Source of the DNA: Halobacteriales archaeon QS_6_71_20
GTDB lineage: Archaea > Halobacteriota > Halobacteria > Halobacteriales > Haloferacaceae
DNA length: 64,000 nucleotides
Direction of reading: 5' to 3'
NCBI GenBank assembly: GCA_003020945.1
Contig: PXRU01000002.1
Location: 158,097-222,096, forward strand
Made by a program: the position numbers and the translations under genes. Every line of letters begins with the position of its first letter. The first letter of the stretch is position 1. The notes beneath the pieces were generated by a model. It saw nothing but the letters and a program-made list of their open reading frames with translations. It searched no databases and was not told the origin of the DNA. This document shows, piece by piece, positions 4,464-47,961 of this stretch.

Positions 4464-5201
4464 TCATACTGCTCTGCTTTCTTCTGAGGATACTCCTGAA
4501 TTACCGCCAGCAAGTCGTTTCAGGCCGACTCCAACTGCGAACCAGAACGTCCCCAGAACGATTGCCACTCCAAGGGCAATCGCTCCTGCGTAAATCATGT
4601 CCACGAGCGGTGGTTCGCTGTTGCTCGCAAGGAATCCATCAAGAAGAAGAGCATACGGAAGCCCGAACGACAAGACCCAGCTGATGAGCAACCCTTCGTT
4701 TCTGAAGCTTTGATATGCAGTGGGGAGACCGATCAACAAGGATCCGATCAGATATGCCGAGAGCGAACCACCTGGGACTCCGGCAAGGAATCCCTGTGCG
4801 TTCGACGTGCTAAGGAATACGAATGCCAATATAAAGCTGATAACCCCGGCCGTGATCCACCCGATCGCGATCTTGGAGCTTTGGCCGGTTAGCAGGTCAT
4901 CTAAACGAGTAGCCTCCCATTCCTCGTCTACTCGCGCTCTGGCTAGTCTACCAAGGCTGATTCCGACTACGGTTACGGGGATAGTTACTGCCAGCGCCCA
5001 GAATACAGATTCAAGTACCGGATCCAGTAGCAAGGTAGCGTCGGTCAGGAAGAACTGACCAGTCCAAAGTGCAACCGGCAAAAATACGACTGTACCTGTA
5101 GCCGGTATGCTGACGCCACGAAGTGCAGTGAACGCAGCGATTCCTACAAGCGCGACGACGCCGAGTGCTAAGTACGACTCCTGCATAGAAGCCTGTAGCA
5201 C
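4464..5201 (-). CDS. Multi-pass membrane protein of unknown function
   Basis: 245 aa, several hydrophobic TM segments; convergent with the preceding protease-like gene; no recognized family. Confidence 0.6.
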   Translation of the reverse strand: MLQASMQESYLALGVVALVGIAAFTALRGVSIPATGTVVFLPVALWTGQFFLTDATLLLDPVLESVFWALAVTIPVTVVGISLGRLARARVDEEWEATRLDDLLTGQSSKIAIGWITAGVISFILAFVFLSTSNAQGFLAGVPGGSLSAYLIGSLLIGLPTAYQSFRNEGLLISWVLSFGLPYALLLDGFLASNSEPPLVDMIYAGAIALGVAIVLGTFWFAVGVGLKRLAGGNSGVSSEESRAV

Positions 5202-32903: not shown

Positions 32904-33359
32904 TCAGTGCTCGAACTCCTCGCGAGTGACGCGCACGCCCACCGTCTCCGGGACGTCGCGGAGGTCGTACTCCGGCAGGTCGGCGCCGTCGCTCCTGGCG
33001 AGGTACATCGGCTCCACGAGTCGACCGTCCGCGACGCCGTACAGCTTGAGGAAGCGGTCGGTCTCCTCGCCCGGCACCGCGTCGTTGCGGACGGCGGTCG
33101 CGAGGTCGCGCGAGAGCCACTCCGTCTCGGAGACGGACGGCTCCCGGACCAGCGTCTCCTCGACGAACCGGACGAGATACCAGTTGAGGTCGTTGCACAG
33201 CGACACCGCCGCGCCGAGGCTGACGGTGTCGAGGGCGACGGAGTTCTCGAACGGGGAGCGGAGGTCGTACGTCGCCAGCGCGTCGCGGGCGGTCTCCCGC
33301 GACAGCAGTTCGTAGCGCAGGTCGGTCTCGGGGCCGCCGACGAGACAGACCGTGGTCAT
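32904..33359 (-). CDS. DUF5804-like haloarchaeal protein
   Basis: MTTVCLVGGPETDLRYELLSRETARDALATYDLRSPFENS...NDLNWYLVRFVEE. Confidence 0.65.
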   Translation of the reverse strand: MTTVCLVGGPETDLRYELLSRETARDALATYDLRSPFENSVALDTVSLGAAVSLCNDLNWYLVRFVEETLVREPSVSETEWLSRDLATAVRNDAVPGEETDRFLKLYGVADGRLVEPMYLARSDGADLPEYDLRDVPETVGVRVTREEFEH

Positions 33360-33440
33360 ACTCCCGGGTGGCCGCCGCCGGGCAAAGCGGTTACGCTCCC
33401 CGGCTCCCCGTCGCCGGGTCGGCACCGCGCCCGCCGGCGG

Positions 33441-35551
33441 CTACTCCCCGGCGGCCCACTCCAGCGCCGCCGCGAGGTCGTGGGCCGGCGGCGAGCAGGC
33501 GAAGTCCCGACACGCGTACGCCGTCGGCTCCCCGTCGCGTGCGCCGCGGCCGCGCCACACCGGCGGCGCCTCGTCGAGGCCGAGGCGGTCGAGCCACCCC
33601 TCAAGCGCCGCCTCGGTCGGGGGCCGCGGGGCGACGATGACGCCCGGGAGATAGCGGCTCGCGAGCGTCGCTCCAGCGGCGCCGCGGTCACGGCGTCGGC
33701 GTGGGTCGCCACCACGTCTCGGGCGACGGCCTCGAACCCCTCGTCGGGCGCGAACACGTCCAGATCGAGCAGGAGCCGGGTCGCCACGCCGAGGCTCGAC
33801 GGCGTGGAGGCGTCGGTCGGCTCCTGCGGGCGGACGACGAGGTCCTCGGCGTCCGCGGGCGTGGAGTAGACGGTGCCGTCGTCGGCGTCGTAGAAGGCGT
33901 CGGCGACGACACGCGCCAGATCGAGCGCGAACCCGAGGTGGTCGACGTCGCCGGTGACGCCGTACAGGTTGAGGGCCCCCCGGCCGAGATACGCGTAGTC
34001 CTCCAGATAGCCGATCCCCTTCACGTCGGCGCTGCCCTCGTGTTCGATATACCGACGGCTGAGCCGGTCGCCGTCCCAGAGGCGATCCCGAACGAACCCG
34101 AGGGCGTCGGCGCCGCGGTCGGCGAGCCCCGGGTCGAGCGTCCGCGCCCCGGCGGCGAACGCGGAGATCGCGAGGCCGTTCCACCCCGCCAGCACCTTCT
34201 CGTCGCGGGGCGGCCGCTCCCGGTTCGCCTCCCGGTGGTCGTACAGCGCCGTCCGCGCGGCCATCAGCCGCTCGCGGGTGTCGTCGACCGTGCGGTCGTA
34301 CGTCTCCGCCAGCTCCGCGACCGGCGTCGACCGCGTGAGGACGGTTGTGCCGCCCTCGAAGTTGCCCGCGTCGTCGACTCCGAAGCGGTCACACACCATG
34401 TCGACGGTGTCCCCGTCGTCGAGGCCGGCGGCCGCGAGCGCGTCCGCGACGCCGTCCGGCGTCCAGACGTAGAACTGGCCCTCGCCCTCGCCGGAGTCGG
34501 CGCCGAGGGTCCCGTAGAAGCCGCCGTCGGGGTGGGAGAGCTCCCGGTCGACGAACGCCAGCGTCTCCCGGGCGACGAGCGCGTACTTCGGCCGGTCGAG
34601 CAGGCGGTGGGCGTCGAGGTAGCTCCGGGCGAGCTCGGCGTTGTCGTACAGCATCTTCTCGAAGTGCGGCACCACCCACTCGCGGTCGGTGCAGTAGCGG
34701 TGGAAGCCGCCGCCGACCTGGTCGTACAGGCCGCCGTCGGCCATCGCGTCCAGCGTCTCGACGGCGGTCTCCAGCGGCTCCTCGCGGCCGCTCCGCGCGT
34801 ACGCCCGCAGGAGGAGGTCGACCCGCCCGGACTGCGGGAACTTCGGTCCCGACCGGCCGAAGCCGCCGTACTCGCGGTCGGCGCTCCGCAGCGCCGCGGT
34901 GACGGCGTCCGAGAGCACGTCCGCCGACGGCCCGCCGGCGTCGTCCGAGCCCGTCGTCGCGTCCGCGCCGTTCTCGGGCGGTCCCGTCGCGCCGGCGGCG
35001 TCGGACGGGGCGTCCGTCCCCGACGACTCGATCTCGTCGCGGGCGGCGTCGGTCCACTGTTCGGCCCGCCGCTTCATGTCCGAGCGCTGCCCGGGGTCGC
35101 CCCAGGAGTTCGCGATGTTGCGACACACCTCCAAGAACCCGGGCATCCCCTGGCGACCGTCCCGGGGGAAGTACGTCCCGACGTAGAACGGCTTCCCCTC
35201 GGGGGTGAGCCACGCCGAGAGGGGCCAGCCGCCCCGTCCGTTCACCAGCTGGCAGACCGTCTGGTAGACGCGGTCGAGGTCCGGCCGCTCCTCGCGGTCG
35301 ACCTTGACGGGGACGAACTCCTCGTTGAGCACCGCCGCGACGGCGTCGTCCTCGAACGACTCCTCCTCCATCACGTGACACCAGTGGCACGCCGAGTAGC
35401 CCACCGAGAGGAAGATCGGCACGTCCCGCTCGCGGGCGGCCGCGAGCGCGTCGTCGTCCCACGGCTGCCAGTCGACGGGGTTGTCGGCGTGCTGGCGGAG
35501 ATACGGGCTGGCCTCCCCCGCCAGCCGGTTTCTCGCCGTCGGATCGGTCAT
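33441..35551 (-). pseudogene. Thioredoxin-domain/DUF255 (YyaL/SSP411-like) protein with frameshift near 33670-33690
   Basis: N-terminal frame: RNRLAGEASPYLRQHADNPVDWQPW, GYSACHWCHVMEEESF. Expected C-terminus (ATLASRYLPGVIVAPRPPTE...YACRDFACSPPAHDLAAALEWAAGE, stop 33441) is in another frame; original frame runs into Arg/Ser-rich nonsense. Confidence 0.8.
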
Positions 35552-35851: not shown

Positions 35852-37013
35852 ATGTCGGAGACAGTTCTCCTCGTCGGCGGCGGCGGCCGCGAGCACGCCA
35901 TCGCCCGCGCGCTCGCCGACGACTGCACGCTGTACGCCTGTGCGAGCAACCGCAATCCGGGGATCGCGTCGCTGGCCGCCGGGATCGAGACGGTCGACGA
36001 GCGCGACGCGGAGGCGGTCGTCGCCCACGCCGAGGACGTGGGGGCGGACCTGGCGGTGATCGGCCCCGAGTCGGCGCTTTCGGCGGGGGGGGTACGAGAC
36101 GTTCGACTCCGCGGACGCCGCCGCCGACTACGTCGCGGCGTACGACGGCGACGTGGCGGTGAAGCCGGTCGGCCTCACCGGGGGGAAGGGCGTCCGCGTG
36201 ACCGGCGACCAGTTGACCGCCGAGGCGGCCGTCGACTACGTCCGCGAGGCCGGCTACGACGAGTGGGTGGTCGAGGAACGGCTCGTCGGGGAGGAGTTCA
36301 CCGTGCAGGCGTTCGTCGCCGACGGCGAGGTGCGGACGACGCCCGCCGTGCAGGACCACAAGCGCGCCTACGAGGGCGACGAGGGGCCCAACACCGGCGG
36401 GATGGGGAGCTACTCGGACACGGAGTCGACGCTCCCGTTCATGACCGACGAGGACTACGACGACGCCGTCGCGGTCGTCGAGGCCGTCGTCGACGCGCTC
36501 CCCGGGTACAAGGGCGTCCTCTACGGACAGTTCATGCTCGGCGCGGACGGGCCGAAGGTCGTGGAGTTCAACGCCCGCTTCGGCGACCCGGAGGCGATGA
36601 ACACGCTGTCGGTCCTGGAGACGCCGTTCATCGACGTGCTGACGGCCGCCCGCGACGGGGAGCCGCTCCCGCAGCTCGACTTTTCGGGGGAGGCGACCGT
36701 CTGCAAGTACGCGGTGCCCGCCGGCTACCCGGTCGAGCCCGACGCCGGCGCACGGATCGAGGTCGACGCGTCCAGCGTCGGCGACGCGCTCCTGTTTCAC
36801 GCCAGCGTCGACCAGCGCGAGGACGGCCTGTTCACGACCACCTCCCGGTCGTTCGCGGTCGTCGGCCTCGGCGACTCCGTCGCCGCCGCGGAGGCGGACG
36901 CCGAGGAGGCGCTGTCGGTCGTCGACGAGGGGTTCCACGTGCGCCACGACATCGGCACCGCCGAGCTCGTGCAGTCGCGTGTCGACCACATGAGGGAACT
37001 GCGCGGCGAGTAG
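35852..37013 (+). pseudogene. purD: Phosphoribosylamine-glycine ligase (PurD) with internal deletion/frame break at about 36085-36092
   Basis: MSETVLLVGGGGREHAIARAL...VIGPESALSAG, then G8 tract, then in another frame YETFDSADAAADYVAAYDGDVAVKPVGLTGGKGV...; roughly 40 residues of the conserved region missing. Confidence 0.8.
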
Positions 37014-41186: not shown

Positions 41187-41394
41187 ATGTACCGCGCCAG
41201 CGACGAGGTCAACAACGAGGAGTGGCTCGCCCGCCTCCAGCGGGCCGCGGAGTCGCTGGAGCTGTCGGCGGAGGCGCGGTCGAACGCCACCGACCTCTTC
41301 CTCTCGGCGGTCCCCGAGGCTGACCCGGCTCTCCGTCCAGCAGCACTGGAAGGGGCTGCTGGAGGACGCCGGCTTCACCCCGCCGACCTGGTGA
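41187..41394 (+). pseudogene. Small TFIIB-family-like protein with internal deletion/frame break near 41318-41326
   Basis: Frame 1 MYRASDEVNNEEWLARLQRAAESLELSAEARSNATDLFLSAVPEA; frame 2 after it RLSVQQHWKGLLEDAGFTPPTW*; cyclin-like middle apparently missing. Confidence 0.6.
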
Positions 41395-46757: not shown

Positions 46758-47961
46758 ATGGAACCGCCGGAACGACAGCACCCGGAGCCGCCTCGGGTGA
46801 AGGAACTCTCCCCCCCGAACCGAACGCTGATGGGACCCGGCCCCAGCGACGTCCACCCGCGCGTCCTCCGGGCGATGAGCACGCCGCTGGTCGGCCACCT
46901 CGACCCCTCGTTCGTCGAGATCATGGACGAGACGCAGGAGCTGCTCCGGTACGTCTTCCGGACGGACAACCGGTGGACGATCCCCATCTCCGGCACCGGC
47001 TCGGCGGCGATGGAGGCCGCCGTCGGCAACCTCGTCGAGCCGGGCGACACGATGCTCGTGCCGACGAACGGCTACTTCGGCGGGCGGATGGCCGAGATGG
47101 CCCGTCGCGCCGGCGGGAGCGTGGTCGAGGTCGACGCGCCGTGGGGCGAGCCGCTCGACCCCGCCGACGTCCGGGCGGCCTTCGACGAACACCAGCCCGA
47201 CGTGTTCGGCTTCGTCCACGCCGAGACCTCCACGGGCGTCCGCCAGCCCGACGTGTCCGAGCTGACGGAGATCGCCCACAGTCACGACTCCTACGTCGTC
47301 GCCGACTGCGTCACGTCGCTGGGCGGCGTTCCCCTTGAAGGTGGACGAGTGGAACGTCGACGTGGCGTACGCCGGGCCCCAGAAGTGCCTCTCGTGCCCG
47401 CCGGGCGCGTCGCCGCTCACCCTGAACGACCGCGCGATGGACAGGGTGCTCTCCCGCGAGACGCCCGCGCGGTCGTGGTACCTCGACCTCTCGCTGCTTG
47501 AGGGGTACTGGGGCGACGAGCGCGCGTACCACCACACCGCGCCGGTCACGAACGTCTACGCGCTGCGGGAGGCGCTCAGGCTCGTCGCCGAGGAGGGCCT
47601 CGAGTCGCGGTGGGCGCGACACCGCGAGGTGGCCGGCGCCCTGAAGACCGGGTTGGAGGCGATGGGGCTGGAGACGAACGTCGCCGACGATCACTGGCTG
47701 CCGAGCCTCAACGCCGTCCGGGTGCCCGACGGCGTCGACGACGGCGCGGTCATCGACGCGCTGCTCGCGTCGTACGACCTGGAGATCGCCTCGGGCCTCG
47801 GCGATCTGGAGGGGGATATCTTCCGGATCGGCTGCATGGGACACTCCGCGCGGCCGGCGAACGTCTCGCTGCTCGTCTCCGCGCTGGGCGAGACGCTCCG
47901 GAGCCACGGCGCCGCCGTCGACGTGGGCGCCGGCGTCGAGGCGAGCGCGTCCCGGCTGTAG
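46758..47961 (+). pseudogene. Alanine-glyoxylate/serine-pyruvate-type class V aminotransferase with single-base frameshift near 47328-47334
   Basis: Frame 1 ...LMGPGPSDVHPRVLRAM...VADCVTSLGGVPL; frame 2 KVDEWNVDVAYAGPQKCLSCPPGASPLTLNDRA... to stop 47961; one extra base in GGCGTTCCCCTTGAAG restores GVPLKVDEW if removed. Confidence 0.85.

Follow-up and report, generated by a model that had tools for sequence, protein, structure and literature searches.

A frame-broken purD gene in a Halobaculum genome assembly is very probably an assembly artefact

The broken purD gene and its junction

The 64,000-nt stretch analysed here (the window; positions 158097-222096 of contig C2) belongs to a 2.65-Mb assembly of 32 contigs that is 93.9% complete and has a G+C content of ~70%. 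On its forward strand, at window positions 35852-37013, lies a broken purD, the gene for phosphoribosylamine--glycine ligase, whose reading frame changes at a tract of eight G residues (G8). Gene order in the window matches that of five congeners throughout, and the orthology of purD is supported by its syntenic setting and by 78-88% amino-acid identity to three congeners; related sequences place it in the genus Halobaculum, the closest named match of its C-terminal part being Halobaculum litoreum (86%).

The 5' part of the gene (35852..36088, + strand) starts with the ATG at 35852, reads MSETVLLVGGGGREHAIARA...VIGPESALSAG over 79 aa and corresponds to PurD residues 1-79. It matches the PurD family model (TIGR00877, E 1e-14) and a truncated GARS_N domain (PF02844) that ends at Pfam model position 77 of 100. 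The 3' part (36093..37013, + strand), in another frame, opens with YETFDSADAAADYV at 36093 and supplies PurD residues 123-428 and the stop codon (37011-37013); Pfam detects GARS_A in it from model position 20, the first 19 positions being missing, together with GARS_C. Between the two frames, the letters at 36085..36092 (+ strand) are GGGGGGGG, the G8 tract, within the surrounding sequence ...GAGTCGGCGCTTTCGGCGGGGGGGGTACGAGACGTTCGAC... at 36072-36110, and it is at this junction that PurD residues 80-122 are absent. No single continuous frame runs over GARS_N, GARS_A and GARS_C. The halves are spaced by 4 nt here against 129 nt, in frame (43 codons), in every congener examined, which leaves 125 nt absent. 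The initial annotation had described purD as broken at the G8 tract with about 40 conserved residues gone; the frame change at 36085-36092 is confirmed, and the loss measures 43 codons.

Both halves match known PurD (TIGR00877; PF02844 GARS_N, PF01071 GARS_A, PF02843 GARS_C; PDB 2yrw, 1gso). Intact orthologues in the same genus are 428 aa long and have the same neighbours as purD here; unlike them, the gene in this assembly lacks the 125 nt at the GARS_N/GARS_A border, has lost its frame, and has neither half above the curated TIGR00877 cut-off of 288 bits (260.3 and 53.2 bits for the two pieces, compared with 392 bits for an intact congener). The missing piece covers both the last part of GARS_N and the way into the ATP-grasp domain, so the product predicted from this sequence could not be functional. 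What remains of the gene shows zero stops in either part, with amino-acid identities to three congeners of 79-86% (5' part) and 87-88% (3' part), and its differences from one of these congeners (G004) fall at third codon positions in 27 of 39 cases in the N-terminal part and 68 of 108 in the C-terminal part.

The G8 tract at purD is the sole run of at least eight G or C in the 259 kb of contig C2, and three congeners have no such run in their syntenic 280 kb. At the junction, the codon preceding Phe/Tyr is one for Asp in most relatives (90 of 110), and Gly is found there in just 2. Given that the contig has no second tract of this kind and that Gly is so rare at this codon, some of the Gs may be spurious.

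PurD in relatives and in the rest of the assembly

Residues 80-122 were present, with neither gap nor stop, in all 110 haloarchaeal PurD sequences fetched, so that the shorter arrangement, whose presence in close relatives would have spoken against the initial annotation, was found in 0 of 110. Nine positions of the segment are invariant in this set (F92, P94, A99, E102, T103, D104, K105, R109 and F111), and the E-T-D-K positions among them fall at the GARS_N/ATP-grasp border. The PurD cut-off was passed by 37 of 40 related genomes; the three below it include one with no match and one with a weak ATP-grasp match, both of them incomplete assemblies.

A second purD copy had been proposed at the outset as one way out, and the search of the assembly speaks against it. 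Run over the whole genome, the PurD profile recovered, apart from the two halves, only two weak matches, of 39.6 and 20 bits, in other frames of ATP-grasp type; no second purD was found in the 2.65 Mb and 32 contigs, an assembly that is 93.9% complete and contains gaps. purD DNA is single-copy, and a search of the assembly for the segment absent from the gene brought up no convincing match, the best having an E of 0.19. An intact PurL is present.

Many congeners (G001-G007, G009 and G010) carry a PurD-like ATP-grasp paralogue of ~440 aa that scores ~85-103 bits (for example, G004:C1:1719126-1720148). As a backup for purD this paralogue was rejected, as it was not found in the present assembly.

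Frame-breaking lesions on two contigs and in congeners

Further lesions lie in the window. The gene adjoining purD, which encodes a DUF255/thioredoxin-domain protein (33356..35551, - strand; PF03190), lacks ~91 nt near 33668 relative to three congeners, and also relative to G001 and G006, and this deletion puts its C-terminus out of frame. A short conserved gene (41187..41394, + strand) lacks 101 nt near 41322 relative to each of three congeners. An aminotransferase-like gene of ~400 aa, named from reading of its sequence and with its span set by DNA alignment (46812..47960, + strand), carries one extra base near 47332-47339 that shifts its frame relative to five congeners, three of them again on retest.

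We surveyed 455 kb on two contigs (C2, 259 kb, and C1, 196 kb) by piecewise comparison with congeners, counting a deletion when the piece was absent relative to at least two of them; two candidate positions in divergent genes (C2 152719 and C1 194034) were left out of the count. Twelve gene-breaking deletions free of N, of ~14-150 nt, were found, affecting purD and at least eleven other genes, equivalent to the loss of one piece of coding sequence in about every 38 kb. Those on C2 measure 14, 70, 91, 125 and 101 nt, and include 14 nt absent from guaB, encoding IMP dehydrogenase (G000:C2:17534), and 70 nt absent from the topoisomerase VI subunit B gene (G000:C2:128380), each a sole copy by model search. 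On C1, frame-breaking lesions lie in unrelated genes at positions 4648, 53100, 55938, 91008, 120891, 122761, 175781 and 177213 (G000:C1). The deletions on this contig (53, 128-152, 79, 76, 55, 76-91 and 40-55 nt) affect genes for a TrkA-domain protein, an S9 peptidase, DUF2071 and DUF92 proteins, a PhoU-domain protein, MoeA and a trpD-like protein, and C1 also carries a one-base change. The survey tally is two single-base indels against a dozen clean gaps of 14-150 nt. By eye, several deletion junctions have 3-6 nt of shared sequence. The G+C content of the absent pieces is barely above that of random segments (mean percentile 0.65).

The same contigs contain explicit N runs, at G000:C2:96060-96096 (37 N), G000:C2:230137-230149 (13 N) and G000:C1:92057-92232 (176 N). 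The place of the 37-N run is taken by 225 nt in two congeners and that of the 176-N run by 205-275 nt in congeners. Since the runs are shorter than the congener DNA, they show that gaps were written too short, scaffolding having underestimated their sizes. The 32 contigs and the N runs together suggest that this is a draft or metagenome-derived genome.

As a control, three congeners (G010, G004 and G003) were put through the same frame test, each being compared with the others along ~480 kb; in none of them did two references agree on the size of a frame-breaking deletion of at least 14 nt. At the DNA level, size-consistent gaps numbered one in G010 (35-36 nt), 0 in G004 and 0 in G003, against six in C2 of the present assembly, two of which (21-42 and 24 nt) are small and possibly natural. 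With the control near-empty, the lesions are a property of this assembly rather than of the genus. In the syntenic regions of G003 (L127-L130, L173-L182 and L213-L222), several one-base frame shifts were seen relative to two congeners; these are perhaps sequencing errors of that genome's own.

Origin of the purD break

We conclude that the purD break is very probably an assembly artefact and that purD is most likely whole in the living cell. Breaks of this kind are frequent among unrelated genes of the assembly but almost lacking in congeners; one of the lesions is an explicit N gap of the scaffold, shorter than the DNA it replaces; and the genes hit are functionally unrelated, among them the sole guaB and topoisomerase VI subunit B genes and MoeA, TrkA-, PhoU- and trpD-like genes. 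Neither half of purD contains a stop, most of their differences from congeners lie at third codon positions, and PurL is intact. That the same type of lesion recurs in many unrelated genes, while size-consistent frame-breaking deletions are absent from G010, G004 and G003, is what an artefact would be expected to leave. At purD, a short G-rich end would have served to join two pieces of the chromosome, with loss of the ~125 nt between them; the assembler, or a gap closer, would have made this join where coverage of a G+C-rich stretch was poor. Loss of coverage driven by G+C content may be the cause, but the tendency is weak, the absent pieces being only mildly enriched in G+C. One point against an artefact is the 3-6 nt shared at junctions, as this is also expected of true microhomology deletions.

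Such shared sequence would fit illegitimate recombination, and hence a real and very recent deletion that inactivated purD; the organism, or the strain that was sequenced, would then be auxotrophic for purines and live by salvaging them. We consider this improbable. The sole purD is indeed broken, and so is guaB, another purine gene, but unrelated genes including that for topoisomerase VI subunit B are hit alike, which purine salvage does not explain, and the lesions are neither confined to nor enriched in the purine pathway (purD and guaB broken, PurL intact and many unrelated genes broken). One lesion is a scaffold gap, neither half of purD has decayed further, and purD is whole in every relative with a good-quality match to it; the auxotrophy would require a coincidence with similar breaks in unrelated genes of these 455 kb, topoisomerase VI and MoeA among them. 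It is equally improbable that purD and guaB were both truly lost by recent short deletions, leaving a Halobaculum dependent on the purines of its neighbours. If true, a Halobaculum would here provide a rare example of purine auxotrophy; a literature search for a purine auxotroph in this genus returned nothing relevant.

A general wave of pseudogene formation in the lineage, with purD as one instance, is very unlikely. The dozen or so genes broken within 455 kb and a genome of 2.65 Mb, compared with ~3.0-3.8 Mb in congeners, would agree with such genome decay, but the remaining parts of the genes are stop-free and highly similar to their counterparts, a dozen clean gaps of 14-150 nt against two single-base indels is unlike ordinary decay, and the small size is explained by an incomplete draft (93.9%, 32 contigs, N runs). 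A run of eight G is a classical slippery sequence, and PurD could in principle still be produced by slippage on it, yet we give this almost no credence, as rejoining the frames would leave out the 43 residues, with the invariant E-T-D-K, that are kept in 110 of 110 relatives.

Among the three readings put forward in the initial annotation, then, the assembly lesion is the one borne out, by the many unrelated genes hit, while true auxotrophy and a second copy both fared badly. Read as an assembly artefact, the purD break is almost certainly no biological feature and tells us nothing new biologically. This assembly is no basis for inferring auxotrophies, that for purines included, and calls of broken or missing genes in it are untrustworthy; the congener control offers a cheap, read-free way to detect such assemblies.

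There are documented cases of pseudogenes made by assembly (PMC11017572) and of genes falsely scored as lost where the sequence is G+C-rich (PMC9516821). The account of spurious pseudogenes by Cooley and Wright 2024 (PMC11017572) puts its emphasis on frameshifts and internal stops in bacterial genomes, whereas here the usual lesion is the absence of 14-150 nt, in an archaeon with 70% G+C; the shared sign of a poor assembly is an excess of broken genes over relatives. The false gene losses described from short-read assemblies (PMC9516821) concern vertebrates, and the G+C excess of the absent pieces is weak in our case, but they too involve G+C-rich DNA with short N gaps and absent pieces of coding sequence.
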